From assembly GCA_020831805.1 (NCBI GenBank), contig JAFIFX010000015.1:1-64000 (forward strand): DNA of 64,000 nt. Direction: 5' to 3'. Every line of letters begins with the position of its first letter. The stretch's first letter is position 1. Both the position numbers and the translations under genes were made by a program. The stretch comes from Planctomycetota bacterium (GTDB taxonomy: Bacteria > Planctomycetota > Phycisphaerae > Phycisphaerales > UBA1924). Positions 10,384-33,467 of the stretch are shown here, one piece after another. Under the pieces are notes generated by a model that searched no databases, was not told the DNA's origin, and worked only from the letters and a program-made list of their open reading frames with translations.

Positions 10384-10394
10384 CCCTGTGCCCC

Positions 10395-10421
10395 GGTGGC
10401 CCGGGCGTCCCGCCCTGTGGT
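10395..10421. repeat. Palindromic repeat family C
   Basis: GTGGCCCGGGCGTCCCGCC followed by CTGTGG. It matches the copy at 33468-33490 (GGCACAGGCGTCCCGCCTGT) in its CGTCCCGCC loop and flanking complementary arms. It stands just after the aldolase stop codon. Confidence 0.6.
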
Positions 10422-10463
10422 CCAAACAGCCCTGCTTCCTTCCGCCCCGCCCCGCGGGGCTTT

Positions 10464-12167: not shown

Positions 12168-12178
12168 CGCGTCTCCTG

Positions 12179-13759
12179 TCACTCACGCATCGCGTGGTCG
12201 GGCCATACGCCGGAAATGCGCAGGCGGTTGATCTCTTCGAGGGTCCAGCCTTCGAGGGGGATCTCGATCTGACCCAAGAAGACGCGGTCGGAATCGAGGT
12301 CGGCGAAGACGGAGCGATGGCGGAGATTTTCTTCCTGTTCAAACCGGACGAAGATGCGGTCACCCGGCCTGGGCTCGGGCAGGAATGCTGATGTATCCTT
12401 GATCAGCGCGCCGGACCATGCGCTGTCTGGCCCGAGATGCTGCCCGCGTGGGATCACTCGTTGGGTGCTCGGCTCGGTGCGGAACCAGCATCCCTGCCCG
12501 CTCATCAGGATTCGCTCTTCTCCTCCCGATCGCTTGAGCAATACGCTGGTTTGCCCTCCGAAGGTGATTCGTTCTGATTGCGGCGGGCCATCCCAGATCA
12601 AGTAGATCACCGGACGCCAATCGCCGCCCTCGAAGCGGACGGGCCTTGGTTCAAGCCGGGCCTTGAGGGATGACTCCAGAAGGGTACCGACCTCCGGCTC
12701 GGTGCGTATTTCCGGCATCGCGTGCGGATTCTGGTGTATCGTCACCGGTACGGTGATGGTTGCGAACTCGTAGTTTGGATCAAACCATGGGTCGTGCGGG
12801 TTCGATGTCTCGAAGATCACGATAACCGAGCGCTCGGGCGCATGCCCACCGAACAAGTCGATCGCCAAGGGTACGACGTTGTCGTTCCAGCCGGGCCAAT
12901 GATCGTCCTTGACCGGCCGGAGCAGGTCCGAAGCAAACCAATCATGGATCTGATCGGGATGGGACAAGTTTGATATGCGATCCGGAGTCTCCGGGTAGCC
13001 GTACCAGCCGGAGACTGGCTCGTAGACTCCTGGTGTTCTGTGCAATCGAACACGGTATCGCGGGCCAATAAGAGTTCGTGTGAGCAAGTACCCATGCGGC
13101 GTGGCGTCCATCGGCCAGTCGTCCCGTGTGATGATGGTCGCCCAGGCCACGGATCGCGCCCAGCGTGCCTGACGGTCAGTGAGTCGCTCTCTTTCGTACA
13201 GTGTGGATATGGTGCGCCAGAGGACAAAGCCCTTCATCGTTGTCCTGTCGGTGATGGTCTCATGGCTAGAGAGCCGTCCGATGCGGATCAGAAGCCACCG
13301 CGTCGTCGGGCCCAAGTTCGGTGATCTTCGTATCAACTCTTCGGAGATGATGAAGTGGAAATCCGGCGCCGCGCTGGAATGACCTTGCACCCTGCTGCCG
13401 GGTGCCGCGGGCATCCATGCGACGGAAGCGACCAAGATGGGGTCGGGCACGGCCGCCACCCAGCCCCGTTGGTACGCGCCAAGCCGTGCGCCGAATATGT
13501 GCAAGCTGATCAGACAGCTGAGCAGCCCGACCACCGCCCACTTCCACCTCCGGCGGGTGCGGCGGGTTTCGCGGGCGGTGCGGTGGGGCTTGCCGCACTC
13601 GGGGCAGCGCAGCGGGGGGTTGCCGGATTCGGAGAGGTCGTACCAGCACTTGCGGCAGCGGGTGCGGCCTTTGGCGCGGTCCCAGAGCAGGGCCCACAGG
13701 AGGAGCACGCCGCCGCCGGCGGTCAGCGTCCAGGCCAGGATCGTCCAGGTGGTCGCCAT
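12179..13759 (-). CDS. Zinc-ribbon membrane protein, paralogue 2
   Basis: A 526-residue paralogue of the downstream gene: transmembrane helix (about 5-25), zinc ribbon CRKCWYDLSESGNPPLRCPECG (two CxxC pairs 18 residues apart), basic RRTRRRWK, second helix, then a large exported domain. The short SGNPPLR linker is the ancestral-looking form. The start ATG has AGGAG 6 bases upstream. The stop is 12 bases before the next start, so the two genes form an operon. Sequence similarity is strongest in the N-terminal 110 residues and in the last 40 (GWTLEEINRLRISGVWPDHAM versus RWTLDEVRRYIVNG), with the middle strongly diverged. Function unknown. Confidence 0.75.
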   Translation of the reverse strand: MATTWTILAWTLTAGGGVLLLWALLWDRAKGRTRCRKCWYDLSESGNPPLRCPECGKPHRTARETRRTRRRWKWAVVGLLSCLISLHIFGARLGAYQRGWVAAVPDPILVASVAWMPAAPGSRVQGHSSAAPDFHFIISEELIRRSPNLGPTTRWLLIRIGRLSSHETITDRTTMKGFVLWRTISTLYERERLTDRQARWARSVAWATIITRDDWPMDATPHGYLLTRTLIGPRYRVRLHRTPGVYEPVSGWYGYPETPDRISNLSHPDQIHDWFASDLLRPVKDDHWPGWNDNVVPLAIDLFGGHAPERSVIVIFETSNPHDPWFDPNYEFATITVPVTIHQNPHAMPEIRTEPEVGTLLESSLKARLEPRPVRFEGGDWRPVIYLIWDGPPQSERITFGGQTSVLLKRSGGEERILMSGQGCWFRTEPSTQRVIPRGQHLGPDSAWSGALIKDTSAFLPEPRPGDRIFVRFEQEENLRHRSVFADLDSDRVFLGQIEIPLEGWTLEEINRLRISGVWPDHAMRE

Positions 13760-14252
13760 GGGGGCTCCTTGGGGCGGCGGGCCCCTGGTGGCGTTGGGCG
13801 CGTGCCCGGCGGTCTGGGTTGTTCGAAGGACTGGCGCTCGGTGTCCTGCCCGGAGGCAGCATACAGGCGGTGGGTGTTTGCCTCAACTTGAATCCGTGGT
13901 GTGATTTTTGATTCTTCCGGGCATCCCGACCCATCCCCGGGGCGGCAAGGACGACCGAGCTTGACGACCGAAAACCGGGCAGGCGTGAAGGGGTGCGGGT
14001 TGGGACGGCGCGGGATCGGCGTGGTGGGCCGGTTTGCGAGAACCCGGCGCGACTTCGCGGCCGGGGGACCGTACATCATGGGGAAGAGCGATCCATCCCG
14101 CCCGCACGGATGCCGAGGCCGGTCCCGCTCCACATCCGAAGACATGAGAAAGGAGAGACCTGGGTCTCTCTCGCGCGCCGGGCGACCCGTGCGGCACTCC
14201 ACTCCCCCTCTGCCGCCGGGCGCCCGGTGCTCTTTTTGTCGGGCCGGTGCGG
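13760..14252. other. Intergenic region without a recognised gene
   Basis: About 490 bases. No credible coding frame or structured RNA family is recognised. It contains a hairpin GAGAGACC-TG-GGTCTCTC (about 14153-14171) and a GCCGGGCGCCCGGTGCTCTTTTT hairpin-plus-T-run (about 14215-14238) on the plus strand. The latter could terminate plus-strand transcription just before the end of the convergent epimerase gene, hinting at an unrecognised short plus-strand transcript. Confidence 0.35.
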
Positions 14253-17596: not shown

Positions 17597-19087
17597 ATGC
17601 CCGGCCAGCCCGAACGGAAATCTGCGGACGCCGACGCCCTTTGGGGCGCACTCTCGCTCGCCATCGGCGAGCACCGACGCCGGGAACTGCCCCGGCAGGA
17701 GAAACTGTGGGCGTACTACCGCAACCCGCTCGGGCTGGTCGGCGCGTCGGGGACGGACGCGTCCACTTCGGGCGGCTGGTACCGCCAGGCGCAGGAGGCG
17801 GGCCTGCCCCGGCGGATCCGCGGGCGTGCGGGCGGGGTGACGCTGCCCGGTGCGGAGCCGGGCCGGCGCGAGGTTGTGATCGAGAACGACATCGCCTGGC
17901 GCGTGCAGACCATGGTTGATTTCATGTTCGGCCGGCCCGTCCGGTTCGAATCGCTGGCGTCGGACGCCGGGACGCGGGCCAGGGCCGAGCGGCTGATCGA
18001 GTCGGTGTGGGAGCGCTCGGGCGGCATCGCGATGATGCAGGACGCCGCGCTGCTCGGGCATATCTTCGGCCATGTCGACCTGCTGCTCCGGGTGGACGCG
18101 TCGCGGCTCGGCGGGTCGCTCGAGGACGCGGTCGGGGCGTTCACGATCGAGCCGGTGGACCCGCGCCGCGGCGTGCCGCTGGTATCGCCCGAGGACTACC
18201 GCGAGCTGGACGCGTACGCCGTGCACGCCTGCCGCCCGGTGCGGTCCCGACCACGCGGGCCGGTGGGCCGGGCGCTGGACGCGATGGGCCGGGACGGCGA
18301 GGCCGAGCGGAAGCCCGAGCACGAGGCGATCACGGAGGTCTTCGCGCCCGGTGTGCGACGGGTCTACCGCGACGGCGAGCGGGTGTCGAGCGAGCGTTCT
18401 GGCCTGCTGGCGGACACGGTGCCGGTCATCCACATCCAGAATGTCAGCCAGCCGTTCGTGTACGGCGGGGTGGGCGAGGTCGAGCCGCTGGTCGCGCTGC
18501 AGGACGAGCTGAACACCCGCCTGAGCGACCGTGCGTACCGCGTCACGCTCCAGTCCTTCCGGATGTACCTGGCCAAGGGCATCGAGTCGTTCGACGGCGC
18601 GAGCATCGGGCCGGGCACGGTGTGGAGCACGAACAACCCCGACGCGTCGATCCAGGCGTTCGGCGGCGACCTGTACAACCCGGGCGAGGAATCGCACATC
18701 CAGGAGATCCGCGAGGCGCTCGACAAGATCAGCGGCGTGCCGCCGCTGGCGGGGGGCGTGGTGCGGGCGAAGCTGGGGAACCTTTCGAGCGCGAACGCGC
18801 TGCGGGTCACGCTGATGGGCCTGATCGCCAAGACGCAGCGCAAGCGGATCTCGTACGGGCGCGGGATGGAGCGGGTCGGGTCGCTGATCCTGCGGGCGTT
18901 GCACGAATCCGGCACGCTTCGCATCGGCGCGGGCGAGCGGTCGCTGCGGACGGTCTGGCCGGGCTTCGTGTTCGAGGACGAGCGCGACCGCCTGGCGGCT
19001 GCCCGCCAGAAGCAGGAGTTGGGCGTCGACGGTGCGCATGTCCTCGCCGACCTGGGCGAGGACCGGCGCGATCCCGGCGTGGTCTGA
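17597..19087 (+). CDS. Phage portal protein (SPP1 gp6-like)
   Basis: A 496-residue portal protein. Portals form the dodecameric ring at one capsid vertex through which DNA is packed and to which the tail binds. Family features are the N-terminal KLWAYYRNP, IENDIAWRVQTMVDFMFGRPVRFE, VIHIQNVSQPFVYGGVGEVEPLVALQDELNTRLSDRAYRVTLQSF, and the C-terminal KISGVPPLAGGVVRAKLGNLSSANALRVTLMGLIAKTQRKRISYGRGM (channel and tunnel-loop region). Start 17597 follows AGGAGGAGG at 6 bases. It heads a same-strand series: portal, scaffold, capsid, connectors. No terminase gene lies upstream, which is unusual. Confidence 0.9.
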   Translation: MPGQPERKSADADALWGALSLAIGEHRRRELPRQEKLWAYYRNPLGLVGASGTDASTSGGWYRQAQEAGLPRRIRGRAGGVTLPGAEPGRREVVIENDIAWRVQTMVDFMFGRPVRFESLASDAGTRARAERLIESVWERSGGIAMMQDAALLGHIFGHVDLLLRVDASRLGGSLEDAVGAFTIEPVDPRRGVPLVSPEDYRELDAYAVHACRPVRSRPRGPVGRALDAMGRDGEAERKPEHEAITEVFAPGVRRVYRDGERVSSERSGLLADTVPVIHIQNVSQPFVYGGVGEVEPLVALQDELNTRLSDRAYRVTLQSFRMYLAKGIESFDGASIGPGTVWSTNNPDASIQAFGGDLYNPGEESHIQEIREALDKISGVPPLAGGVVRAKLGNLSSANALRVTLMGLIAKTQRKRISYGRGMERVGSLILRALHESGTLRIGAGERSLRTVWPGFVFEDERDRLAAARQKQELGVDGAHVLADLGEDRRDPGVV

Positions 19088-19117
19088 ACACACATCCACA
19101 TACGAAAGGAGACGGTC

Positions 19118-19645
19118 ATGAAAGATGAAGTCGGGGGCGGCGCATCGCCCATCGGTGGAGGCGGCGGCGGCGGGGGCGGGGGGAGCCAGCCGCCGGAGAC
19201 GGGGCCCGATCGCCCGACCGCGCCGGGCGAGGTCCAGCGGCTGCGTGCGTTGCTGGAAGACGCCGAGTCGGAGATCGCCGACCTTGAGGCCCGCGTGGCC
19301 GAGCTGGAGGGCGAACTCGGCGCGGCCCGCGAAGCGGGCGAGCGGGCGGCGCGGGACCAGGCCATCGAGCGTGAGCTGACCCGGGCCGGGGCCGTGGATC
19401 TCGAGGCGGCGGCGATGCTGCTGGCGGCCTCGCTCGGCGGCGAGCCCGGGGCCGACATCGCGGCGGGCGTGCGCGACCTGCGCGACCGCAAGCCGTTCCT
19501 GTTCGCCGGCCCGCCCAAGGGGACCAACGCCGCGATGGGCCCCGGCGTCGCGCCGGACGAGCTGGGCGAGATGGCGAGCCGCGCGCGGAACAGCGGCGAC
19601 CGGGCCGCGCTGCTGCGCTATCTGCGTCGGCGTCGCAGCACCTGA
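19118..19645 (+). CDS. Capsid scaffolding protein
   Basis: A 175-residue protein between portal and capsid genes, the canonical place of a scaffold. It has a flexible glycine-rich N-terminus (ten consecutive G), a coiled coil from about residue 40 to 90 (EVQRLRALLEDAESEIADLEARVAELEGELGAAREAG), and a basic C-terminal tail [12 protein letters not shown] of the kind that contacts the inner capsid face. AAAGGAG precedes the ATG by 8 bases. In the integrated state the minus-strand recombinase frame reads antisense through the end of this gene and stops at 19618. Confidence 0.75.
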   Translation: MKDEVGGGASPIGGGGGGGGGGSQPPETGPDRPTAPGEVQRLRALLEDAESEIADLEARVAELEGELGAAREAGERAARDQAIERELTRAGAVDLEAAAMLLAASLGGEPGADIAAGVRDLRDRKPFLFAGPPKGTNAAMGPGVAPDELGEMASRARNSGDRAALLRYLRRRRST

Positions 19646-21609
19646 GTCAGCGAGGAAGACACACACGACACCCCACACGGAGAGGAGACACCCATGGCGT
19701 TCACCGGAAAAGCCACCTTCACCGCCGGCGCGGGCCTGCCCGAGCTGGTCGAGGATGTTTCGGACATTATCGGCATCGTCAGCCCGCACGAGACCCCGCT
19801 GCTCGACCATCTCGGCGACGCCAAGCGGGCGGCGATCAGCACGGTCCACGAATGGATCGAGGATGCGCTCGTTTCCCGTCTGACGCGAGACGCACGCAGC
19901 GCTTCGAACGCATCTTCGGGAAGGAACAGCGTACCCGTTTTCGTATGCGGGTCCACCTCGATGCGATCGACGCATTCGTGCACGACTCGTCGCATCTCCA
20001 TGGTGATCGCACCCGGGCGAATCACCTTATCGAGGTCCCTAAGCTTCTCCATCGCCCATGCTCGGAGTTCGTCCTCATCCGGGGCCATGGGCGGAGTCGG
20101 AGCATTGCTGAGTTGGGCAGCCAGGGCATCACGCTTCCGCTTCAAGTCCACGAGCGAATCGCGAAGCTCATCGACGTCGGCCAAGTCTCCGTCTGCAAGC
20201 AGGTTCACCGTCGCTTTGATCCGCTTCGTGATAGCCGCCATTTCGCTCTTGATCGCTGCTTCGGGCGATGGCTGTGTGTCACGCTCTCTCGCTGCCTCCA
20301 CGAACCTCGCAATGGCAGTCTGAACCGCATCGGGGCTCCCGAGCATCACATCACGCACCTGCTGCAGCACCCAAGCGTCCAGAGCGTCAGCCTGGATGTG
20401 TGTCGCCTTGCAGACCGACTTCCCTTGGGCTCGGTACCCCGCATCCGCGTAGTAGCGAATCTCTCCAGAGGCATTCTTATGGATGCAGCCCCAATAGTTG
20501 AACCCGCAGTGCGTGCATCGAAGAAGGCCGGAAAGCAGGTAGCGCCGCGTCGGTCGAGCCAGACCCCCCTTGTCGCGTCGGGCGGTCATCTGCTCCTGGG
20601 CCTTCTGGAACAGTGAAGCATCGACGATCGGCTCATGGACGTCTTCGATGACGATCCAGCGATCTGTCGGGTTCCGTGTACTCGTCGGCATCTTCTTGGA
20701 CACCGGCGACCCGTCTGGCGCGACCTCATGGATTTTCCCAAACGTGCGACGGTTCCAAGCGAGAGCGCCTCGGTAGCAGGGGTTCTGGAGGATGGACTTG
20801 ACCGCCATCTGGTTCCAACGGGTGTTCATCGGACCAGAGATCCCGCGGTCGTTCAGGGCAATGACAATCGAGCGGAATCCGTATCCCTCAGCGCACATCT
20901 TGAAGATGTCCTTGACCACCGCGATGTGCTTCGGGTCTCCGGGCACAAGTCGGACAATGTCGGACTTCATCTTCTTGGGGAGTTTCTGCTTCGGCTCGAT
21001 GAACCGAAGGTGCCGACCGTCTGGGCCGAACTCCTGTCGTCTGCCATCAGGAAGCGTTCGGACCGTGCGCAGCACCTGGCCATTCTCCGAGACGTACTGG
21101 CGGTCATACCCGTATGGGGCACGGCCGCCCATCCCACTCTTGCGCACGGTAACCGTCGAGTACTGCCCGCGAATGCTGTCTCGCGAAAGCTTGACGCTGT
21201 ACTGGCGGGCCTGCCACGACTTCACGCCCTGAAGCAGCTCGCCCTCCTCGCCCTCGGGGATGCCTTCAGCGCAGAAGATGGCCTCGACGCCCGCCATGCT
21301 CAGGCGGTGCAGGTAGTAGCCCGTCTCATTGGTCCCGCCGCGGCTGAACCGGGACATGTCGTAGCAGAGCACCGCCTTGAACGCGGGCTTGGACTCGGCG
21401 TCGGCCAGCATCCGCTCGAACGCCGCGCGGCCGCGGGCGATCGTCCCGCTGATCGCATCGTCCACGTACTCGCCCGTCAGGCGGTACCCGTGCTCGCGGG
21501 CCCAGCGCTCGATGTAGGCCCGCTGGTCGGGGATCGATCGCTCCTGCATGTCCGTCGAGCGCCGCAGGTAGGCCACCGCGGGGGTGGCGTTCTTCGCGAT
21601 CATGTTCAT
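19618..21609 (-). CDS. Large serine recombinase, C-terminus altered by integration
   Basis: A large serine recombinase that would cut and join the element's attachment sites. The catalytic serine is in [18 protein letters not shown] (about residue 18), with the resolvase-domain [10 protein letters not shown] and [19 protein letters not shown] following. Next come the recombinase domain ([37 protein letters not shown]), the zinc ribbon [19 protein letters not shown]...SVCKATHI and a coiled coil (about 440-510). The ATG overlaps the preceding stop (ATGA). At residue 582 the frame meets the attL core. Up to there it is element sequence; the final 82 codons are host capsid/scaffold DNA read in antisense. 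In the excised circle the frame instead ends 21 codons past the core, giving a 602-residue protein. Whether the 663-residue integrated form is active is the key open question. Confidence 0.92.
19694..19866 (+). pseudogene. Major capsid protein (DUF5309/SU10 type), 5' part, split by insertion
   Basis: The first 57 codons of the capsid gene, ending [10 protein letters not shown] at the element's attachment core. GAGAGGAG precedes the start. The conserved HEWxED motif at the break is characteristic of this family. In frame joining to 30778-31786 gives 1,182 bases, exactly 394 codons with a stop, so the gene is intact apart from the insertion. As integrated, the frame continues for 152 further codons in antisense recombinase sequence to 20323, so a chimeric non-functional peptide is expected. 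Confidence 0.9.
19847..19884. other. attL attachment site
   Basis: The left junction: host capsid half-site, GC core at 19865-19866, then the element arm GCTCGTTTCCCGTCTGAC (19867-19884). That arm is the mirror of the arm at attR (16 of 18 positions). It was located by requiring that joining the flanks restores the capsid frame and that the element arms form a dyad. Confidence 0.85.
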
Positions 21610-22073
21610 GCTCCCTTCTGTGCATCGCCCGCGGCGAACAGCCCGCGCTCGATCTTGCGGAAGCGGGCCTCGCTGCCCTTGGCCGCGATCTCGCGGATCA
21701 TGGCCGCGTAGAGCGTCGCCTCAGGGGTCTTCCCGTTTGGGCTCGACCACAGGCCCTGCTCGGCCATCGCGGCGATGAGGTCCTTGGCCCGCATGGGTTC
21801 CGTCGAGGCCGCGAGCACCTGGGCGGCCGCGTCGAGGGCGCTGATCCGCTTCGGGGCGCTCGCGCGCTCCTTCGCCTTGGCAGTGCGCTTGTTCGCGGGC
21901 GCGGTGCTGGCGTCCCCCTTCGCGGCCAGCGCCCGCTTGGTCTTCGCAGCGCCCTCCGCGCGGGCAGCGCTAGCCGACATGCGCGGGGCCTTCTTGGTCG
22001 CGGCCTTCGGCGTCGCCTTCGCGGCGGGCTTGCGGGTCGTCTTCTTGGCGTTGGTCTTCTTCGTCATGGTCAT
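21606..22073 (-). CDS. HARE-HTH (HB1/ASXL-type) domain protein with basic tail
   Basis: A 155-residue protein in two parts. Residues 1-80 are a Lys/Ala-rich tail ([26 protein letters not shown]...) like those of bacterial histone-like proteins, expected to bind DNA without sequence preference. The rest is a winged-helix domain [71 protein letters not shown], the HARE-HTH pattern seen in ASXL, RpoE-delta and some restriction proteins. It may organise the element's DNA, or help or control the recombinase, whose start overlaps its stop. The second ATG (22067) has better spacing to AGGAG than the first (22073). Confidence 0.75.
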
Positions 22074-22502
22074 GCTCCTTTCGCCCGCGGGTTTCCGGCC
22101 CGGGGTCGCGACAGGAGTGGCTGCGAGCTTCGGGAAGGCAAGGCGGGTGCGCGAGAACTTTCGGGGGTTCCGATGCGGGCCAGATCGGGGCCGTGCGCCG
22201 GCGCGGGCGCGCCGGTTGGCCACGTCGGGGGCGTCGTTGGCCCGTGTCGCGTTCGGGCGCGGAGGATGGCCCGCGAACCCGCCTGCGCGGCGGTCGGCCA
22301 CAGGTCGGCACTCGGACAGCCAAAAGAAAGTCTGTCGGGGTTTGCGGCTGTTCCCGCGGGCGTAGGGCGGACCGATGCCCGCGGGAGGACCCGCTCTTGG
22401 CCGGGTAGGCTCGCGCGCACGACCCGTCCCCCGGGCCGCTTCTGCGGCACCGGGGGGGTGTGGGGGGGACGCGCGTATGTACCCCCCCCTCCCCCGCGGC
22501 GG
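22074..22502. other. Element intergenic region with long G/C hairpin
   Basis: About 430 bases without a gene. The end next to the primase-helicase stop carries a long hairpin (22450-22499): two G7 runs in the 5' arm face matching C runs in the 3' arm around GCGCGTAT. Being beside a replication gene it could be a replication origin, a terminator, or a quadruplex-forming control site. Confidence 0.4.
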
Positions 22503-24629
22503 TCACGGCACCACCTCGGTGTCGATGAGCGGCTGCTCCACGGTCGCGAACCGGACAGGGACATGCGGCCCCTCGACCCACCGATGCACCAGCTTGGGCG
22601 TGGCCCGTTCGGCGATGCGAAGCAGGTCCTTGGCCCGCGTCTTCGACAGCGTTTCGTCCGCGCCCGCCGCGAGCAGGATCTCCTCGCGGAGGCGCGGGCG
22701 CTTGCCCACGAACTGCGTCACGAACCGCTCGGGCGTCCACGGCTCGGGCTTGGGCTTCGCGGGCTCGTCCTTCCGGGCGCGTCGGTCCCGCCTCGACGTG
22801 GCCCGTTTCAGGTCGGCGGGGTCGAGGCCGTCGTCGATGGACCAGACCGGGAACGCCCAGCGCAGCACCGCGGGCTCGATCGGGGGCCACGACCGGGCGG
22901 CCGCGTCGAGCACGACGCACCCCTCCTCCTCGTGCTCGCGGAGCACCAGATGCGTGTCTACGGCCCGCGACTGCGCGCCGGCCCCAGCGCCCACGTCCGT
23001 GACGCTCTTGCCGCTCTGGTTGCCCTTGGTGCTGTGGTGGATCAGGACGAAGCTGCACCCGATCTTCATCGCGACGCGGTCGAGGCGGTTGTAGAGGTTT
23101 GCCATGGTGCCGTTGTCGTTCTCGTCCTTGCCCTCCGGCATGAAGCGGTACCAGGCGTCGAGCACGATGACCTTGAACCGCCCGTGGTCGATCGCCTCGA
23201 GCGTCGGAGCGAGCCTGAACAGGTCGGTAAGCCCGCCGCGGAGGTTCCAGACCTCGAGCGTGCCCGCGAACTCGCTCATGGGGACGCCCATCGCCTTGGA
23301 CACCTTCGGCAGCCGGTTGGCCGCGGTCTCGCCGTGCAGTTCGTTGTCCACGATCAGCACGCGGCCCTGCTCGGTCTCGTAGCGGTCGAGCCACGGCCGC
23401 CCGGTCGCGACGCAGATCGCGAGGTTGTTCACCAGCCAGGACTTGCCCGTCTTCGGCGGGGCGATGATGTTCATGGTCTCGCCCGAGCGCAGCAGGCCCT
23501 GCACCACGGGCGGGCGCAGTTCGGGGAACTCGGCCATCAGCTGCGCGACGGACTTCCACGGCGGGTTCACACGCAGCTGGGCCGCGAGGTCGGGCTCCTT
23601 CGGCGCGGCGGGCACGAGCCCGGTGAGGTCCACGTCGTCGGCCGTGCGCTCGATCGCGGCGGTGCGGGCGAGGGCGATCGTGCGGCCGATGTAGTCGCCC
23701 CGCAGCGCCTTGGCGGGGTTGTCGCCGCTGGCCCGCCGAGCGGACACGAGCAGGTCGGCAATCTCCTGGTCGGCCCATCCTCGCAGCGCCGCGATCGTCG
23801 CGAGCGAGAGATCCTGCCCGCTGCGGCTGGGGTCGTGGATGTCGCGGACCTGACCCCGGAACGCCGCGGCGAAGCGAGGGCTCTCGGCGAGGGCCGCGGC
23901 GAGCTTCTCGGCGGGGGGCGAGGCGTCCGGGCGCAACACGATGTGGTCGCAGGCCGTCGTCCGCTGCGACACGTCGAGCGTCGGCGCGGGCCCGGTGAAC
24001 GCTTCGAGGTCGTCGATGTGGTAGCGGCGGGTGGGGTCGAGCGCGAGCAGCCTGACCCGCGTGGGCGCGCCCGCGAGCTTCCGGTTCATCGTGCCCGGGA
24101 CGCGGAGCACGCGGGCGAGGTCGCCGAGATTCTCGACGCCCGTCCAGCCTCGGGACGCCGCGGAAGCGCACACGAGCCCGTGCCACCCTCGGGCCAGGGC
24201 CGCGGCCCGCTCGCGCTCGCGGATGTCGTCGAACCGCCAGAACTCGCTGAGCAGCCAGTAGGCGTGCAGCCCGTGGCCGCTGTCCACCAGCGCCGACGGC
24301 GCGTGCGGCATGGCCCGCACTAGCGCGATGGCGTCGTCGAGCGAGGGCGGGAGTGCCCTGGCCTTGTGCGCCGGCCCCGCGACATCGAGGTCGGCCCACA
24401 GGCAGCCGATCCCCGCCACGTCCATCGCGGTGCCGCGCCCGCTGGGGTCGCCCGCGACGAGTCCGAGGCCGAAGTAGATGTCCGCGTCGTCGCCGAGCGA
24501 TGCGATGTAAGCGCCCGCGCCCGCCATGGCCTCGAACCGCCGCGTGGCCCGCGAAGGCAGCGTGAAGATCGAGAGGCGGGCGTCGGGGCCGACGCCGCCG
24601 GCGAAGATCGCGTCGAGCAGATCGCTCAT
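22503..24629 (-). CDS. Primase-helicase (RepB-like primase + RepA-like AAA ATPase)
   Basis: A 708-residue fusion for autonomous replication. N-terminal half: an archaeo-eukaryotic-type primase signature, with GIGCLWADLDV (metal aspartates), SALVDSGHGLHAYWLL and LARVLRVPGTMNRK, as in plasmid and satellite RepB-like primases. C-terminal half: a RecA/RepA hexameric helicase with Walker A IIAPPKTGKSWLVNNLA (about residue 390), Walker B FKVIVLDAWYRFMP, and LIHHSTKGNQSGKSVTDVGAGAGAQSRAVD. A winged-helix-like tail follows. Start 24629 has AGGAGG 7 bases upstream and overlaps the preceding stop. Such primase-helicases are typical of plasmids, phage satellites and small temperate phages. Confidence 0.85.
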   Translation of the reverse strand: MSDLLDAIFAGGVGPDARLSIFTLPSRATRRFEAMAGAGAYIASLGDDADIYFGLGLVAGDPSGRGTAMDVAGIGCLWADLDVAGPAHKARALPPSLDDAIALVRAMPHAPSALVDSGHGLHAYWLLSEFWRFDDIRERERAAALARGWHGLVCASAASRGWTGVENLGDLARVLRVPGTMNRKLAGAPTRVRLLALDPTRRYHIDDLEAFTGPAPTLDVSQRTTACDHIVLRPDASPPAEKLAAALAESPRFAAAFRGQVRDIHDPSRSGQDLSLATIAALRGWADQEIADLLVSARRASGDNPAKALRGDYIGRTIALARTAAIERTADDVDLTGLVPAAPKEPDLAAQLRVNPPWKSVAQLMAEFPELRPPVVQGLLRSGETMNIIAPPKTGKSWLVNNLAICVATGRPWLDRYETEQGRVLIVDNELHGETAANRLPKVSKAMGVPMSEFAGTLEVWNLRGGLTDLFRLAPTLEAIDHGRFKVIVLDAWYRFMPEGKDENDNGTMANLYNRLDRVAMKIGCSFVLIHHSTKGNQSGKSVTDVGAGAGAQSRAVDTHLVLREHEEEGCVVLDAAARSWPPIEPAVLRWAFPVWSIDDGLDPADLKRATSRRDRRARKDEPAKPKPEPWTPERFVTQFVGKRPRLREEILLAAGADETLSKTRAKDLLRIAERATPKLVHRWVEGPHVPVRFATVEQPLIDTEVVP

Positions 24630-24820
24630 CGGCCCGCCTCCTTGCCGCGCTGCTCGCGCTTCCATTCGTCGAGCAGCCACGCGGCGAGGGCGTGCGACCG
24701 CGCCTCACTGTCAGCGGATGACAGTGATCGGTCATCGCCCGCCTTGCGCGGTGCTACCTCGACCCGCATGGACCATTGGCCCACCACCGAACGGACTTCC
24801 GTGTCCAACGTCGTCGCCAC
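24626..24820 (-). CDS. Small element protein upstream of the primase-helicase
   Basis: A 64-residue hydrophilic protein, unrecognised. It starts at GTG 24820 with GGAG 8 bases upstream, ends WLLDEWKREQRGKEAGR in a basic amphipathic helix, and its TGA overlaps the primase-helicase ATG. Its position suggests a helper of replication or a small regulator, but nothing in the sequence proves this. Confidence 0.55.
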   Translation of the reverse strand: MATTLDTEVRSVVGQWSMRVEVAPRKAGDDRSLSSADSEARSHALAAWLLDEWKREQRGKEAGR

Positions 24821-25050
24821 CTTGATGCTCCGGAACCGGGTGCCGAAGGCCGCACGACGCGGCCGTAGCCCGCGGCGCTGACGCGCGTGTTGGGCTAGGG
24901 GCCCGCGAACGCGCGGACCCGGCAGGGCTCAGGGATGGGTGGGTCGATGGGTCGGAGTGATCGCTCTGGTTGCTGGTACAGGGTTGTGATCAGATCGAAA
25001 ACGGCCCCGCGCCGTTCCCGGCGCGGGACCGCCCCAGACACCGACGACGG

Positions 25051-26970
25051 TCAGGCTTCGCCCTTGGCCTTCACGGCCGCCCGGAAATCGCACGTCGCCA
25101 CGCCCCAGTCGAAGTAGACCCGCCACGACGCCGCGAGGCGGTTGGGCTCGGTGCTGAGCCCGAAGTACTCGACGGTCGGCGTGTCGCGGCCGTTCAGGAA
25201 CGCGACGATCGTGCTGCACGCGGCGTGCTCGGCGAATAGGTACCACGCCTTCGCGCTGGCGTTCGCTCCGAAGCGTGCGCCGTTGCTCAAGCGGGGCTCG
25301 ATCTCCAGACGCACGAGGTTCCGCACCGCGTTCCCGGTCGGGCCGTTGGTCGCCGCGGCGATGTACTCCGACTCGAGCACTTGCTTCGCCCGCACCGCCA
25401 GCTGCGGCGGGACCAGCAGCGTGACCGGCTTGAGGTCGAGGTTCCGGTCCTCGTCGTCGGTTTGCACCATCATCGCCGTCGCTGCGGCCGCGAGCGAATC
25501 GACGCTCAGCGCCGTGTCCGCGCCCGTGATGTAGTTCCCGTTGCCCGCCGAGAAGAACGAGCCAGGGTTGGCCAGCAGCATCTTGTAGTAGTCGTCCGCC
25601 AGCGTCCGCATCGCCGACCGCCCGAGCGAACGGGCCACGCCGTCGAGGAAGCCGAGGTCGTCGTTGACGATGTCGCGGCGGTCCACGCTGAGCATCGTGC
25701 CGTAGGTGTTGGCCCGGTACGTGGTCGCGTCCTCGCTCAGCGTCCCGTGCTTGATCTCGCCGCCCGGGGCGACGGGGTCGAGGTCGCTGGTCATCGACGG
25801 CCGCACCGCCTTGTGCTCGCGGAAGTCGTTCACGCTGCGCACGCTCGCGATCGACCGCCAGGTCTGCGGGGCCTCGCCGTACCCGTCGAGCAGCACGCGG
25901 CTGATCGACTCGGTCAGCGCGACCGGCAGGCTCATCGTGCTCAGCGCCGCCCGCACGAGAGCGTCCCGCTCGCGGGGCACCTCGCGGCCCTCCATCTCGA
26001 GCGCCCAGCGGCATGCGTCGAGGGTGTGGAGCACGCCGACGCGGTCGGCGGCCTCCATCACGTACGACCCGAACGACTTCTCGGCCAGCGCCGCGAACCC
26101 GCCCTTCTTGAGCAGCGCCGCGGCCAGCACGTTCTCCGTGCTCGCCGAGACGCCCCGCACGCCCGCGCCCAGGTGGGCCACGGGCGCTTTCGGTCGCGAC
26201 GACCGGAGGATGTCCAGCATCTCGGCCCGCAGCTCGCTCAAGTCGATGTCGCCCGCGATGGCCGACGCCTTGAGTTCCGCGACCCGCTTGGCCGATCGGC
26301 CCCAGTCCGATCCCGGCGCGGCGCACGCCGCCTCGATCTCTCGCAGCCGCTCCCGCTCGCTCGCCCGGATCGCGGCCTCGTCCATGACGGCCGCGCCCGC
26401 GTCGTTGTTGTTCGCATCCATGCCCGTACTCCCGTTGATGCCGCGCCTCGCGGCCACGTCCACGCTCGTTGTGCGATCGGCCCCGATCGCCACCACCGAA
26501 ACCTCGCGCAGGCGGCCCCGCTTCACCAGCGTGATTCCACGCCCGCTCACGACCACCCGCCCGTTCACGTTCACCTTCTTGCCCGCTGCGACGCGCTCGA
26601 CCTCGAGCGCCTCAAGGCCCACCGAGGCCTGCAGCTCAAACCCCGCGCGGGCCAGCGCGACCACGTCCTTCGCGGCCTGCCCGACGCCCGTCACCGCGCC
26701 GTCAACGACCAGCGACCCGCCTTCGATGGAGACGCTGCCGTGGCCTACCACGCCGCTGAGCCGCTGATCGTGGTCGGCCAGAATCGCGATCCGCTCGCTG
26801 GCCTCGACGCCCGCGACGTCGATGACGATCGGTCCCCAGCCCCCGACCGTCATCGGTCCGCCCGAGTACGCCACGATCCGAAGCCGCGGCGGGGCGCTCG
26901 CTTCGCCCGCTCGCACATCAACGTGCGCCGCGGCGATGAGCAGGTTGCCGCTCGACGTCATCACCGTCAT
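25051..26970 (-). CDS. Prohead protease fused to major capsid protein (Mu gpT-like)
   Basis: A 639-residue two-part virion protein. Residues about 20-165 are a herpes/HK97-type prohead protease: the catalytic histidine in ILADHDQRLSG, the serine in FELQASVGLEALEV, and the closing strand LREVSVVAIGADRTTSVDVAARRG. A charged helical segment (about 180-260, EAAIRASERERLREIEAAC...) resembles the scaffold-like delta domain. The rest is a capsid protein of the Mu gpT type: QTWRSIASVRSVNDFREHKAVRPSM, TYRANTYGTMLSVDRRDIVNDDLGFLD, VTLLVPPQLAVRAKQVLES and a C-terminal RVYFDWGVATCDFRAAVKAKGEA. The fusion would make self-processing heads. Its start overlaps the sigma-like gene's stop. It is unrelated in sequence to the DUF5309 capsid gene the element has interrupted. 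Confidence 0.88.
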   Translation of the reverse strand: MTVMTSSGNLLIAAAHVDVRAGEASAPPRLRIVAYSGGPMTVGGWGPIVIDVAGVEASERIAILADHDQRLSGVVGHGSVSIEGGSLVVDGAVTGVGQAAKDVVALARAGFELQASVGLEALEVERVAAGKKVNVNGRVVVSGRGITLVKRGRLREVSVVAIGADRTTSVDVAARRGINGSTGMDANNNDAGAAVMDEAAIRASERERLREIEAACAAPGSDWGRSAKRVAELKASAIAGDIDLSELRAEMLDILRSSRPKAPVAHLGAGVRGVSASTENVLAAALLKKGGFAALAEKSFGSYVMEAADRVGVLHTLDACRWALEMEGREVPRERDALVRAALSTMSLPVALTESISRVLLDGYGEAPQTWRSIASVRSVNDFREHKAVRPSMTSDLDPVAPGGEIKHGTLSEDATTYRANTYGTMLSVDRRDIVNDDLGFLDGVARSLGRSAMRTLADDYYKMLLANPGSFFSAGNGNYITGADTALSVDSLAAAATAMMVQTDDEDRNLDLKPVTLLVPPQLAVRAKQVLESEYIAAATNGPTGNAVRNLVRLEIEPRLSNGARFGANASAKAWYLFAEHAACSTIVAFLNGRDTPTVEYFGLSTEPNRLAASWRVYFDWGVATCDFRAAVKAKGEA

Positions 26971-27548
26971 GGCGTGTCTCCTTCCCCGAACAGGTCGAAG
27001 CCCATCGCCAGGAACTTGGGACGCAGTACATTGATGCGCCCCCGCACAGCACCCTCGGAGATACCCATCTGGCGTGCGACCTCGCTGCGGTTGCCGTTAT
27101 GTTCGATCAGCAGGCGGCACATCCGCTTGCTCTGCTCGTTGTCGATGAGGTCGAGCGCCTCCTCGACGCGGGCGGCAGCGGCCTCGTGGTCTGCGGGCCA
27201 TCGCCCGTGCCAACGCCCCAGCGCAGTTTCCTGCTCCTGAGATGGCTCCTTCGGTTCCCCAGATGGCCCGTCCATGGAGTGGAGCCGGTCCAGCTTCGCC
27301 TGGTCCCGCTTGGCGTACTTGATCACGGCGAGGCTCACGACGGTGAAGATCCATGTTTCCGGCGCTGCTTTGCGTGACGGGTCGTAGGTCGGCAGGGCGC
27401 GCATCAAGTGCAGCATCGCTTGGCCGACCGCGTCGTCGTAGACGATTCGTGGCCCGCAGCACTTCTTCGCCGTCGCAATCGCCACGCGCCTGGCGTAGGC
27501 GATCCGATCCGGCGTCAGTTCGAGTCCCTTGGGCGAAGGGTCTGACAT
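26967..27548 (-). CDS. Sigma-70-like transcription factor of the element
   Basis: A 193-residue protein with sigma region 2 (YDDAVGQAMLHLMRALPTYDPSRKAAPETWIFTVVSLAVIKYAKRDQ) and region 4 (DNEQSKRMCRLLIEHNGNRSEVARQMGISEGAVRGRINVLRPKF). The linker between is charged and short. Its gene directly precedes, and by ATGA is coupled to, the protease-capsid gene, so it may redirect host RNA polymerase to the element's late genes. An alternative is a phage antitermination or late-activator protein with an HTH; the region 2 match favours sigma. Confidence 0.75.
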   Translation of the reverse strand: MSDPSPKGLELTPDRIAYARRVAIATAKKCCGPRIVYDDAVGQAMLHLMRALPTYDPSRKAAPETWIFTVVSLAVIKYAKRDQAKLDRLHSMDGPSGEPKEPSQEQETALGRWHGRWPADHEAAAARVEEALDLIDNEQSKRMCRLLIEHNGNRSEVARQMGISEGAVRGRINVLRPKFLAMGFDLFGEGDTP

Positions 27549-28067
27549 TCAGACCTCCTCGCCACGCTCGATCCGCTCGCGGATGTCATCGCACAGCGTG
27601 AAGCTGAGCAGCGCCGGCGACGCCTCGCGGGGCGGCGTGCGGTGCATCACGAAGTACTGGTCGTCAGTTGGAATGGGCCGCCCGTACTTGGCCGACTCTC
27701 GCTCGGCGGCCTCCCGCAGGGCGCGGTGGAAGTCGGCGTAGCTGCAGCCGAGCGCGTAGCACATCATCGCGTACGGCACGAATATGCAGCAGTCCTCGAA
27801 GTGCTCCGCGGCCGCGTCCACGTCTGACTCGGTCCACGCGTCGGTTTCCGAGGGGCTGACCACGCCCTGCTCGACGAGGGCGTCGAGCATGATCGGGCGG
27901 CAGTCGTAGCCGCGGGACCGCAGGTGATGGAATGCCGTCACCTTCGCCATCGGGAACATCCGCTCCCGCTCGTCCTCGGCCGCCTCGATGAAGGCGCGGT
28001 CCGCCCCTGCCAGCGGCATCAGCCGAAGGGCGACATACTCGTCCAAGCTCATTCCGATTCGCGTCAC
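27549..28067 (-). CDS. Unrecognised element protein
   Basis: A 172-residue acidic soluble protein, first gene of the element's minus-strand block. It starts at GTG 28067 with AAGGAGA 5 bases upstream; an in-frame ATG at 28106 is less likely. Visible features are MSLDEYVALRLMPLAGADRAFIEAAEDERERMFPMAKVTAFHHL and the cysteine/methionine-rich HFEDCCIFVPYAMMCYALGCSYADFHRALREA. Its stop is immediately followed by the sigma-like start. Position next to a putative operator suggests early expression. No family is recognised. Confidence 0.6.
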   Translation of the reverse strand: MTRIGMSLDEYVALRLMPLAGADRAFIEAAEDERERMFPMAKVTAFHHLRSRGYDCRPIMLDALVEQGVVSPSETDAWTESDVDAAAEHFEDCCIFVPYAMMCYALGCSYADFHRALREAAERESAKYGRPIPTDDQYFVMHRTPPREASPALLSFTLCDDIRERIERGEEV

Positions 28068-28143
28068 GGGGGTCTCCTTGCCCGGGGCCTCCCGGCGTCG
28101 TGCCATGGCCCCTCGACAGGTTGTTTCCCGCGAATGAGGCGGA

Positions 28144-28164
28144 TTCGTAGGACGATCGTACGAA
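28144..28164. promoter_or_regulatory. Dyad operator candidate
   Basis: TTCGTA and TACGAA flank a 9-base centre that itself contains CGATCG. On the minus strand it includes a TACGAT hexamer that could be the -10 of the element operon, so a bound repressor would block it. Confidence 0.4.
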
Positions 28165-28316
28165 AATCACGCGCTTCATCAACCCACGCAGCGACGCGAC
28201 AACAGGTCCAAACACCGCAACTGCTTGAGCATCAATGAGGTGCGTGTGCTACCCTTTGTGGCCCGCCCCCGTGGAGTGTCCCCGGCAATAATCCCCCAGA
28301 TCGCTGCCGGCACCCG

Positions 28317-28343
28317 TTGCAAGCGATCGCATTCCGTTAGGAT
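28317..28343 (+). promoter_or_regulatory. Promoter candidate for the restriction gene
   Basis: TTGCAA at 28317-28322 and TAGGAT at 28338-28343, 15 bases apart. The spacing is shorter than ideal, so confidence is limited. Confidence 0.3.
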
Positions 28344-28425
28344 ATGGCAGGCACACTGCCGGTCAAAGGGGCTCTGGGCGCAGAGGAGCACCGCTGCTCT
28401 TCCCTGGCCCCGCATTCAATCCCAG

Positions 28426-29532
28426 ATGTCAATCTCCCTCGACCACACCAAGGCCAAGAACATCCTCTTTGAGGCGACCGCGGCTGCACGCACTGAATCG
28501 CTGTCCTCGACTGCCACCGAGTGGAAGACGCGTGTGGCCCGTCTGGGGGAACTCTGTCCCCACGGGAAGAGCTCGACCGTGATCGCGGCACTTGGCACGG
28601 CCATCCTCGCGAAGGCCACCGATGACCGAGTGGATGTTTACTCCCTTCTTGATCGCGGCGAAGCCGAAGCGTCCTACTCAGCTAGATCACTTGCCGACAA
28701 CGTGTGGGCGCGAAACCGGGCGGAGCTTGGCATCGACATCGGTGCCAATGGCGCAAACCCTTTGAACAACACTCCATTTATTGGCAAGACGCGGATCGAC
28801 GACATCTCGGGTGTTCGAAACAAGCTGGGCTGGAAGGCATTTCTTGACTGCATGAAGGCGCTTGAGCGCATCGGAACATCATCGGAAGCCAAAGAAGCCC
28901 TTCGCGGCTTCATCGCCGCGAGAAGCAGGAGCTTGCTGACATCGATCGAAATCGAACCTGCTGAGGGCGACGGCCTTACACAGGGTGGACTCATTGCGCT
29001 AGTCGATCGCTTCGTCTCTGAAGACTCGGAAGGCGGCCGCCGCGCACAGGCAGTGGTAGCAGGCCTGCTCGACGCAGCCTATGGGCCCGACAGTGTTGTT
29101 GTCGGCGTCATCAACGATCCAGACAGACGAGCACCACTCGATGTATCGGTGAGCGATGGCACTGGTTCGCACCTGGTCGCATTTGAGGTAAAGGACAAGC
29201 CCATCTATTCGTCACACATGCGGTCGTCCATCGAGAAAACCGCTCAACAGCACTCGTGCCGAAACTTAGCGTTCGTAGCAGTTGGCAAGAATCAGACGGA
29301 TGATGGGTTCGACGATGTCATTCAGTGGGCTTCACATCATGGCGTGAAGCTCACCATCTTCACCGACTGGACCACGCTGTACTGCGCGTGCAAGTGGGTG
29401 TCGCCGGTCTCGAACGATGTCTTTGAAGGCCGGGTTTTCCGCAGCTTGCTCGCGCGTGCCGCCGAGTTGGGTGTCGCGTCGAAGGCACTCGATGTGCTTC
29501 GGAAAGCCGCAATGGGGCAAGATATCGCTTGA
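28426..29532 (+). CDS. Type II restriction endonuclease, SacI family
   Basis: A 368-residue protein resembling the SacI restriction-enzyme family: SLDHTKAKNILFEATAAARTESLSS at the start, STVIAALGTAILAKATDDRVDVYSLL, SYSARSLADNVWARNRAELGIDIGANGANPLNNTPFIGKTRID, and a late VAFEVKDKPIYSSHMRSSIEK with an ExK-type metal motif. SacI cuts GAGCTC; specificity here is only inferred. The gene lacks a Shine-Dalgarno and starts at 28426 where homology begins. It is followed after 74 bases by a methyltransferase, completing an R-M pair. Codon use and GC are clearly lower than in the element's core genes, indicating separate acquisition as cargo. Confidence 0.8.
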   Translation: MSISLDHTKAKNILFEATAAARTESLSSTATEWKTRVARLGELCPHGKSSTVIAALGTAILAKATDDRVDVYSLLDRGEAEASYSARSLADNVWARNRAELGIDIGANGANPLNNTPFIGKTRIDDISGVRNKLGWKAFLDCMKALERIGTSSEAKEALRGFIAARSRSLLTSIEIEPAEGDGLTQGGLIALVDRFVSEDSEGGRRAQAVVAGLLDAAYGPDSVVVGVINDPDRRAPLDVSVSDGTGSHLVAFEVKDKPIYSSHMRSSIEKTAQQHSCRNLAFVAVGKNQTDDGFDDVIQWASHHGVKLTIFTDWTTLYCACKWVSPVSNDVFEGRVFRSLLARAAELGVASKALDVLRKAAMGQDIA

Positions 29533-29606
29533 CTACTCGATCCCATTTAGCCTCAATCCAAAGGCCCTAGCCCCAACGCCCCAGGCACTGCGACGGAGAA
29601 TACAGC

Positions 29607-30575
29607 ATGACGAAGCAACACCTTCTTGACCTCGCGCCGAATACCCCGCCCACGGACTGGACGAAGTACGTCCAGGACTCGCCGCTCTACAAGACTGATC
29701 TTGGTATTGCCGTTGCTGCTGACTCTCTCGACGTTTTGCGATCGATGCCGGACGCGTCAGTGGACCTCGTTGTCACTTCTCCTCCGTACGCACTCCATTT
29801 CAAGAAGGAGTACGGCAACGCCGACCAAGGCGAGTACATCGAATGGCTATTGCCGTTTGCGCGTGAGATCCGGCGGGTGTTGTCGGATACCGGGAGCTTT
29901 GTCCTCAACGTGGGTGGAGCCTGGACTCCCGGAAAGCCGACCCGATCCATCTACACCTACAAGCTTCTGGTAGCACTTGTTGAGGATGTCGGGCTCGAGC
30001 TTGCCCAGGAATTCTTCTGGTACAACCCGGCGAAGATGCCTGTCCCCGCTGAATGGGTGACGGTGCGACGAATCCGCGTGAAAGATTCGGTCGAGTTTGT
30101 CTGGTGGCTGAGCAAAACTCCCAATCCGAAGGCGACCAACAAGACCGTTCTCCGTCCGTACAGCAAAGATATGATTCGCCTCAACAAGAAGGGGCTTCAG
30201 GCAACGAAACGCCCAGGTGGACACGTCATCAACGAGGGCTTCGCAAAGGTCGATCACGGTGGCTCGATTCCGCCGAATGTCATCGACGACGACACGCCGA
30301 CAGATCTCCTTAAGTTTGGCAACAACGCAGCCAATGACCCCTACACGAAGAGATGCAAAGAAGCGGGCCTCAAGATCCACCCGGCGAGGTTCCCCGCGAT
30401 CCTTCCTGAGTTCTTTATCAAGATGCTGACAGAGCCGCATGACTTGGTGGTCGATCCGTTCGCGGGTTCGAACACTACGGGTATGGTTGCCGAGAAGCTT
30501 GGCCGTCGATGGATCGCGGTTGACCAATCCGAGGAGTACCTCGAGGCGAGCAAGTTTCGTTTTGAGCTTGAGTGA
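29607..30575 (+). CDS. Site-specific DNA methyltransferase (TSPPY, beta class)
   Basis: A 322-residue amino-methyltransferase. Catalytic motif IV is [11 protein letters not shown] (about residue 57) and the AdoMet-binding motif [25 protein letters not shown] comes near the C-terminus, the beta-class order. The SPPY form favours N4-cytosine, though N6-adenine is not excluded. The target-recognition region lies between. It should protect the genome from the adjacent SacI-like nuclease. Spacing of 74 bases and the same lower GC link the two genes. No controller (C) protein gene is found in the pair. Confidence 0.88.
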
Positions 30576-30757
30576 GCGCCGTTAAGCCGCGTCCTGCACC
30601 CCCGCGGGGCCCCAGCCGGACCACCACTCGCCCGGGCCCGCGGGTCGCGGGCAGGCGGGCGTCTCCGGGCCGTCCGGGGCCGCGTCGGGGGCGGATTGCC
30701 TCGGGCGAGGTCTAGCGCGAGGAGATCCCGCTCGGCCCCCAGCCAAACGGTACCGCC

Positions 30758-30795
30758 GTCAGACGGGTAACCAGCGCGGACACCCTGCTGCCCAA
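30758..30795. other. attR attachment site
   Basis: The right junction: element arm GTCAGACGGGTAACCAGC (30758-30775), GC core (30776-30777), then host capsid DNA. The element arm is the reverse complement of the attL arm with two mismatches, so the excised circle would carry a 38-base dyad attP. Confidence 0.85.
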
Positions 30796-31786
30796 CACAG
30801 GGCAGATCAACCAGGCCACCTTCAGCCCCAGCCCGACCACCGCGACGGCGATCATCGTGCAGGACGCGTCGCGCTTCCGCCCGGGCGACCTGGTCCGCCC
30901 GGCGGCGACGGGCGAGGTCATGCTCGTCGTCGCGGTCAACACGGGCACCAATGTCCTGACCGTCACCCGCGGCTACGGCGCGACGACCGCCGCGACGCTG
31001 GCCAACGGCATGACGCTGCACATCCTGGGCAATGCCGCGCTCGAGGGCGACGACGCCCCCGAGGCCCGCTTCACCAACCGTGTGCGGCGTCAGAACTACA
31101 CCCAGATCTTCACGGCGTCGGTCGAGGTCTCCGGCTCGATGCAGGCCGCGGCGGCCTACGGCGTGGCCGACGAGGTCGACTACCAGAAGCAGGAGCGCAT
31201 GCGCGAGCTGCTGCGTGACCTGGAGAACTGCGTCATCAACGGCGTCGCGCCCGGCGCCAACCAGCAGGGATCCTCAACCGTGCGGCGGTCGATGAACGGC
31301 GTCCTGCGGTCCATCGCCACCAACGCCTTCCAGCCCGGCCAGGGACCCATCCCCGACGGCGACGGCTCCAACGATGACGGGCTGACCGAGGAGGTCCTCA
31401 ACGCCGCACTGCGCGCCGTGTGGGAGCAGTCCTCCGGCGTGGTGGACACGATCGTCGTCGGGGGCGCGCAGAAGCGCCGGATCAACGGCTTCGCCACCGG
31501 CTCGCGGTCCTACCTGCCCGACGACCAGACCTACTCGGACATGATCTCGGTGTACGAGAGCGACTTCGGCGTCTGCCGGGTGGTGCTCTCGCGGTGGGTG
31601 CCGCCGGACGCGCTGCTGCTGCTGGATTCCTCGCGCATCTCGGTGATGCCGCTGCAGGGGCGCAGCTTCCACTACAAGCCGCTGGCCGCGACGGGCGATT
31701 CGATCGCGGGCCAGGTCATCGGCGAGTACACGCTGGAGTTCAAGAACGAGAACGCCCACGGCGTGCTCCGCGGCCTGGCCGTCTGA
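30778..31786 (+). pseudogene. Major capsid protein (DUF5309/SU10 type), 3' part, split by insertion
   Basis: The remaining 336 codons of the capsid gene. After the core the frame reads DTLLPNTGQINQATF, then IIVQDASRFRPGDLVR, VLTVTRGYGATTAATLANG, FTNRVRRQNYTQIFTASVEVSGSMQAA and the family-typical C-terminus (VDTIVVGGAQKRRINGFATG..., DFGVCRVVLSRWVPPDALLLLDSSRI, GEYTLEFKNENAHGVLRGL). The protein lines the icosahedral shell in SU10-like phages. It is separated from its start by the 10.9-kb element; only an internal GTG (30857) could start a fragment. No other lesion is seen. Confidence 0.9.
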
Positions 31787-31883
31787 GCCCGACCACCGAT
31801 CCATCTCACGCGGGGCCCGGGGAGCGGGCCTCGCCCGGCGCGGTCGGGAACGCCCGCGTCCGGGTTTGAAAAGGAGGAACACC

Positions 31884-32513
31884 ATGTTCGCACTCGACCG
31901 TGACCTGCTCGTCCTCGAACCCGCCCTGCTCCGCGACGCCGCGTGGGCGGGGCAACGCACGCTGATCGTCAACGCGACGCTGATCGGGACCACGCTCACG
32001 CTCGCCGCGGGATCGTTCGCCGACGCGGGTGTCGAACCGGGCTCCGTCGCTCTGTTCGACGGCCTCGCGATCGAGTTCGTCGAGGTGCTCTCGCCCACCG
32101 AGGCGACGGTCTCGCTGCTCCGCGCCCGGCGCGACGGACCGGCGCTGCCACCGCCGCCCGGAACCAACCGGCCCCTGCGCGTCTACTCGTACGGACCCCA
32201 ACGCGAACTCGTCCACCGCGCGGTGCTGACCATGGCCGGCGTCGATCCCGACGGCGACGGCCCGCTGACCGAGGCCTCGATCACGAACCCGGGGGACCTG
32301 GTCCGTCTGGAAGCGCTCGGCACGCTCGAACTGGTCTACGCCGCCGCCGACCCGGCCGCGGGCGGGCCCGTGACGCACGCGCAGCGCGCCGACATGTACC
32401 GGCGCCGGTTCCACGAGGAACGCGGGCGCGTCTCGGTGTTCATCGATCTCGACGCCGACGGCATCGCCGAGGCCCGACGCAACCTCGCCCTGATCAACCT
32501 CACCCGCGCCTGA
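31884..32513 (+). CDS. Virion-module protein, connector-like
   Basis: A 209-residue protein after the capsid gene, with AAGGAGG 7 bases before ATG 31884. Residues 1-80 form beta-rich sequence (TLIVNATLIGTTLTLAAGSFADAGVEPGSVALFDGLAIEFVEVLSPTEATVSLLRAR). The C-terminal half, with GDLVRLEALGTLELVYAAADP and HAQRADMYRRRFHEERGRVSVFIDLDADGIAEARRNL, resembles head-tail adaptor helices (gp6/gp15-like) by position and by the alpha-helical end. Function is inferred mainly from gene order. Confidence 0.6.
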   Translation: MFALDRDLLVLEPALLRDAAWAGQRTLIVNATLIGTTLTLAAGSFADAGVEPGSVALFDGLAIEFVEVLSPTEATVSLLRARRDGPALPPPPGTNRPLRVYSYGPQRELVHRAVLTMAGVDPDGDGPLTEASITNPGDLVRLEALGTLELVYAAADPAAGGPVTHAQRADMYRRRFHEERGRVSVFIDLDADGIAEARRNLALINLTRA

Positions 32514-32518
32514 ACCCC

Positions 32519-32622: not shown

Positions 32623-32663
32623 CCGTCACCCGCCGTCACCCACCACCAAGCCAGAGACCCCCC

Positions 32664-33465: not shown

Positions 33466-33467
33466 TG

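Follow-up and report, generated by a model that had tools for sequence, protein, structure and literature searches.

The window analysed here is a 64,000-nucleotide stretch of the planctomycete contig JAFIFX010000015.1, from a genome of the order Phycisphaerales, and it contains a gene for an SU10-type major capsid protein (MCP; SU10_MCP, PF17236) that is interrupted by an integrated element of 10,917 bp (19862..30778, no strand assigned). The N-terminal part of the MCP, codons 1–56, lies at 19694..19861 on the forward strand, ends in STVHEWIE and is recognized by the SU10_MCP profile with E=4e-9, and the C-terminal part, which resumes with D-TLLPNTGQ, lies at 30779..31786 on the same strand (E=1.6e-76). 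Joining the two flanks yields an unbroken MCP frame of 391 residues. The element carries a shared GGA core at each end, which corresponds to the aspartate codon of the HEWIE-D segment (GAT at 19862 and GAC at 30779). The same MCP codon is occupied by eight further complete elements of 10.5–11.6 kb; upon removal of the element the MCP is a full-length frame of 387–392 residues in seven of these eight, and is broken in the remaining one (L054).

The recombinase gene of the element lies on the reverse strand at its left end and is followed, moving inwards, by a set of genes on that strand. Overlapping the recombinase start is a gene for a HARE-HTH protein (21606..22067, PF05066), a candidate directionality factor or regulator. 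Beyond it are an AAA_25 or primase-helicase-like protein (22503..24629, PF13481) that is kept across elements, and capB (25051..26970), the element's own protease-MCP fusion, which combines Phage_capsid_4 and Mu gpT domains, corresponds to the PHROG annotation "major head and protease" and is present in all complete elements examined. Conserved beside capB are a sigma70-region-2-like protein (26967..27548, PF04542) and a 185-residue protein (27549..28106), to which no function is assigned and for which searches of Pfam and PHROG gave no match. On the forward strand the element carries as cargo a SacI-type restriction endonuclease (28225..29532, PF09566, E=1.2e-47) and its partner, an N6/N4 DNA methylase (29607..30575, PF01555). 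No terminase, portal or tail gene was recognized among the element genes scanned. Outside the element, a 3.9 kb segment (10384–14252) has no confident gene call and no Rfam or tRNA match.

The recombinase open reading frame (19618–21609, reverse strand) has 663 codons and encodes a large serine recombinase (LSR) with the Resolvase, Recombinase and Zn_ribbon_recom domains of Pfam, whose predicted fold matches the SprA, phiC31 and A118 complexes. Its codons 1–582 (19864..21609), which encode all three Pfam domains, are wholly internal to the element, and codon 583 spans the attachment core. From there the frame continues into the host (19618..19863, reverse strand), where the core codon 583, the residues up to 663 and the stop are read antisense to the MCP and scaffold genes; the integrated form thus acquires 81 further residues. 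When the element ends are joined, the same frame instead runs to a TAG at 30714–30712, yielding a protein of 604 residues that ends in SALVTRLTAVPFGWGPSGISSR. Its native tail, residues 583–604 and the stop, lies detached at 30712..30778 on the reverse strand, with the codons for F594 at 30745–30747 and for W596 at 30739–30741. Integration accordingly cuts 22 residues off the C-terminus of the recombinase and moves them about 11 kb to the other end of the element; once the ends are joined, the target gene is whole again and the recombinase regains its full 604 residues. A preliminary description of this DNA had placed attP inside the recombinase gene and proposed that the C-terminus is swapped on integration; both points hold. 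It also placed the core correctly, as MCP homology fixes it at the Asp codon, and named the right stop and terminal sequence for the joined form, but gave its length as 602 rather than 604 residues. The same MCP homology ruled out a core at cgagga (30719) and with it a form of 585 residues.

The two attP half-sites are found at 19862..19884, within the recombinase frame (GATGCGCTCGTTTCCCGTCTGAC, with the arm CCCGTCTGAC), and at 30758..30780 at the far end together with the core (GTCAGACGGGTAACCAGCGCGGA, with the arm GTCAGACGGG at 30758–30767); no strand is assigned to either. In the reconstructed attP the inverted arms GTCAGACGGG and CCCGTCTGAC surround the GGA core, and one of them lies inside the recombinase frame. 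The site thus displays the short core, the flanking inverted attP arms and the attB unlike attP that are expected of an LSR. A generic repeat search for att sites was uninformative, and neither IMG/VR (exact pattern) nor the family's 163 genomes yielded a contig in attP form for the exact SU10 or TerL subgroup.

Recombinases about 69% identical to that of the window, from the same GTDB family, end their element-internal part at the same codon with VRR(D/E)TSAS at the core, enter the MCP at the same codon and continue on its antisense strand; none of these close relatives, therefore, has its natural stop ahead of the core. Elements related by their backbone, which comprises the 185-residue protein, the sigma-like protein, the protease-MCP, AAA_25, the recombinase and often HARE-HTH, are inserted in other targets. 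The targets include two sites in the SU10 MCP, two sites in the terminase TerL, a ParB-methylase, a tail-tube gene and another MCP, which is entered in its last codons; one of the TerL sites is the Walker-B aspartate (VVLD/DPQTDES). In all six classes of sense-oriented targets (L009, L008, L005, L018, L125 and L127) the recombinase is in frame with the rest of the target, as in L009, where a 1044-residue frame combines the LSR with a GpA nuclease domain. Such sense targets yield annotated giant fusions of an LSR with a terminase nuclease domain or with a methylase. Across the elements the integrated tails comprise 5–136 residues of unrelated host sequence, read in sense or antisense, and recombinases that are 99% identical carry integrated tails of 5 and 18 residues.

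To characterize the detached tail we used 20 element junctions, representing 14 clusters at 90% identity and seven kinds of target site, drawn from contigs on which the far junction is present; 19 of them were reconstructed and one is physically assembled. Junctions were positioned by homology of the target gene, blind to the tail, with 1–3 codons of freedom in L125, L127 and L018. In every one of the 20, the recombinase frame reads through the joined ends and adds a short tail that has a phenylalanine at position 12 and a tryptophan at position 14, and 18 also have an arginine at position 6; the arrangement is general. The tails share a median pairwise identity of 49% and the consensus [ST]R[LV]xxxxFxWxxG. 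Among the first 18 junctions, FxW..G appeared in 8 of 90 other frames and in 53 of 36,000 shuffles; taken with the close relatives that enter the same codon and the motif in all 20 junctions, these counts exclude a chance origin. Third codon positions are the most variable in tail codons 9–19 (SU10 group, p=0.0004; sense groups, p=0.011; all, p=0.0008), and no such excess is seen in codons 1–8, which form the att arm. This codon-position pattern shows protein-level constraint on the part of the tail that follows the att arm. As the tail in antisense insertions cannot belong to the target protein, the recombinase is the common denominator. The synonymous-site value also drops at the 3' end of the recombinase gene to 0.08–0.11, versus 0.24 gene-wide, though this drop is not unique within the gene. 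In an AlphaFold model of the physically assembled tail, built on an alignment of 16 sequences with the tail in a single row, a β-strand is predicted at residues 164–170 of the fragment with a pLDDT of about 55–67; this low-confidence strand could add to the C-terminal hairpin. Sequence searches of solved structures with the tail gave matches that stop short of it, and relatives from phage databases (about 23–25% identical) have no contiguous tail, the one checked (MT837325) having a different C-terminus.

Two intact junctions are physically present in assemblies. One is a tandem on contig C41 of genome G174, where the frame passes from ISRVKSG directly into SSHLTRLRSIKFTWGSGQIVSHA and a stop. 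The other is seen in genome G027, in which L197 and its integrated relative L196 are identical up to AATAGCGGGGGC and then diverge: L196 continues into a tRNA-Met gene (GFEPATSGL and a stop), whereas L197 continues into the attP arm and a tail containing RVRFEWGLGG, with no tRNA. More distant LSRs that enter tRNA genes show comparable arrangements. A capB element in a tRNA-Pro gene (L184), with a recombinase 37% identical and a 13-bp core, has the joined tail VVLAFAWGPGGLVDIG followed by a stop; the tail of L198 retains the F only, and those of L186 and L190 are alike, with the pattern IDLxx..L.Y. As the tails of these distant LSRs differ while the split persists, the split extends beyond the LSRs that have the FxW motif. 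Many distant planctomycete serine recombinases likewise end in tRNA-derived peptides (GAGFEPATSGL and similar), their frame crossing the attachment site (L034, L037, L042, L043, L157, L158, L160–L162, L170 and L171).

Comparisons between elements provide evidence for their mobility. The recombinases of L050 and L178 are 99% identical, whereas their host MCPs, from different GTDB families, are only 59% identical, indicating a recent transfer between bacterial families by mobile elements. The same contrast implies that the tail has been kept through recent integration cycles. Another case is L060/L123 (contig C9 of genome G162), in which the capB, AAA_25 and HARE proteins are 89–94% identical to those encoded by 21606–26970 of the window, and the recombinase is only 56% identical and has a different end; by this comparison the integrase/target module has been exchanged. 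In L063 (contig C197 of genome G087) the recombinase passes from the core into unrelated sequence (PQPSTVNHSPPP and onwards), possibly reflecting a secondary insertion site.

Of 38 loci, 27 have the small HARE-HTH gene no more than 1 kb from the recombinase; in two it lies farther off than that, and nine lack it nearby. Because of these last two groups, we rejected the HARE-HTH protein as a universal directionality factor.

Conservation of the tail as a protein makes it unlikely that the 604- and 663-residue forms are equivalent, and since only excision reunites the tail with the recombinase, selection would have to act in the excised phase. The element has a split recombinase gene whose tail is under selection and is lost in the provirus; the tail is probably needed in the episomal phase. 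The simplest function for the tail would be in attP x attB integration during that phase, with the host-tailed provirus enzyme, which lacks the native tail, being a latent or excision-phase variant. Completed integration would then disarm the very enzyme that performed it, and excision would need help, such as that of the HARE-HTH protein or of a full-length enzyme made by another copy. The provirus tails vary in length without a visible pattern, and a positive role for them is thus unlikely. More tentatively, such a serine integrase may set its own direction or activity, the full-length enzyme integrating and its amputation locking the element until a factor or another copy frees it, a design that might extend across a wide LSR clade including those that insert in tRNA genes.

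Other readings of the swap need to be weighed against this proposal. The tail could be a true part of the enzyme and its exchange could have no regulatory meaning, the in-gene attP merely keeping enzyme and site together while both forms act equally with an ordinary directionality factor. That the provirus tails are unconserved, that the junction lies downstream of the core folded domains and that a small HARE-HTH gene is so often close by all agree with this, but a tail that is conserved as protein despite occurring only in the excised form should matter when lost, and we consider this account rather unlikely. The preliminary description had gone in the opposite direction, proposing that the long integrated tail constitutes an excisionase form that dispenses with a separate directionality factor. 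Two C-terminal forms do exist, and by analogy the mycobacteriophages with attP in the repressor gene have no evident directionality factor (PMC9262239). However, integrated tails as disparate in length and host origin as those described above, differing even between near-identical recombinases, leave no room for a conserved excisionase function, and a candidate factor gene usually adjoins the recombinase; this proposal is not supported and strikes us as very improbable.

A stability or degradation tag that is lost on integration, as in integration-dependent repressor systems, would fit the geometry of an in-gene attP with C-terminal removal (PMC9262239). The conserved part of the tail is nevertheless internal (TR....FxW), and its last residues vary (SSR, ETC, NAE, VYT, AGA) with no ssrA-like consensus, so a tag function seems highly improbable. 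The prospect that the region is instead conserved as DNA, for instance as an accessory binding site beside attR or attL with an incidental open frame, is slimmer still: tail codons 1–8 are indeed conserved as DNA, but the third-position signature of codons 9–19 and the fixed codons of F and W, which hold whatever the att DNA and in either target orientation, speak against it.

In its design the split recombinase gene most resembles those of the archaeal "suicidal" tyrosine integrases of SSV1, pTN3 and pT26-2, in which attP lies in the integrase gene, the gene is split and the intact enzyme exists only when the element is excised; such self-disrupting recombinases are exclusively archaeal according to a review (PMC8371274). 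Integration likewise disrupts the integrase gene in all 20 junctions studied here, but the enzyme is a bacterial LSR that keeps its catalytic domain intact and loses only a 22-residue C-terminal strand, whereas in the archaeal tyrosine integrases the catalytic part is separated. With a selected C-terminal strand that is lost at integration and regained at excision, these enzymes would represent a serine-recombinase counterpart of the archaeal integrases. Mycobacteriophages such as BPs offer a second parallel, as their tyrosine integrase cuts the repressor gene at attP and removes an ssrA-like C-terminal tag (PMC9262239). Both systems have attP in a gene, remove a C-terminal tail and thereby switch the state of a protein, but here the recombinase itself is cut rather than a repressor. 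SSV integrases and repressor-attP phages had thus been aptly chosen as comparisons in the preliminary description (PMC8371274, PMC9262239). The SprA (of SPbeta), phiC31 and A118 integrases share the domains, the short core and the inverted attP arms, and are the nearest solved structures by sequence and fold. A C-terminal swap was not found described for these three in the literature searched, and the A118 integrase has been judged to require a phage-encoded factor for attL x attR recombination (PMC3556126). In the open literature searched, with incomplete coverage, we found no description of a serine recombinase of the self-splitting kind. As in the capsid-encoding satellites known as cf-PICIs, the elements are compact (10–11.6 kb) and have their own capsid gene with no recognized terminase, portal or tail genes; unlike cf-PICIs, they have a distinct gene content and are found inside genes of phages or head clusters instead of at neutral sites, and any dependence on a helper phage is putative.

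The target MCP of the window belongs to a head-gene cluster (17597–19645 and 30779–34346) comprising a portal, a scaffold, the MCP and five small genes. Of the family's 163 genomes, 147 have this MCP, nearly always in single copy and with its flanking synteny kept, in line with a vertically kept cluster; with conserved neighbours, the cluster also occurs in other families and is nearly universal across the order. Of the terminase families, Terminase_6N and Terminase_3 (PF03237 and PF04466) scored above the cut-off in none of 12 genomes. The cluster is probably domesticated or gene-transfer-agent-like rather than an ordinary prophage, and could represent an undescribed agent of this type in Phycisphaerales; a search of the literature on planctomycete gene-transfer agents found no relevant paper.

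Serine integrases are tools of genome engineering, and their directionality is under active study. When an LSR gene is collected from an integrated genome, its native C-terminus may have been replaced by one of host origin. One large mining study of LSRs drew its coding sequences from integrated genomes (PMC10083194), and chimaeric C-termini would thus pass unnoticed in it. A split-on-integration design that had been described as exclusively archaeal (PMC8371274) is now seen in bacterial serine integrases. The elements that bear it also point to a little-known biology, that of putative capsid-bearing satellites whose insertion inactivates genes for capsids, terminases or tails, both in phages and in a conserved head cluster of the chromosome.
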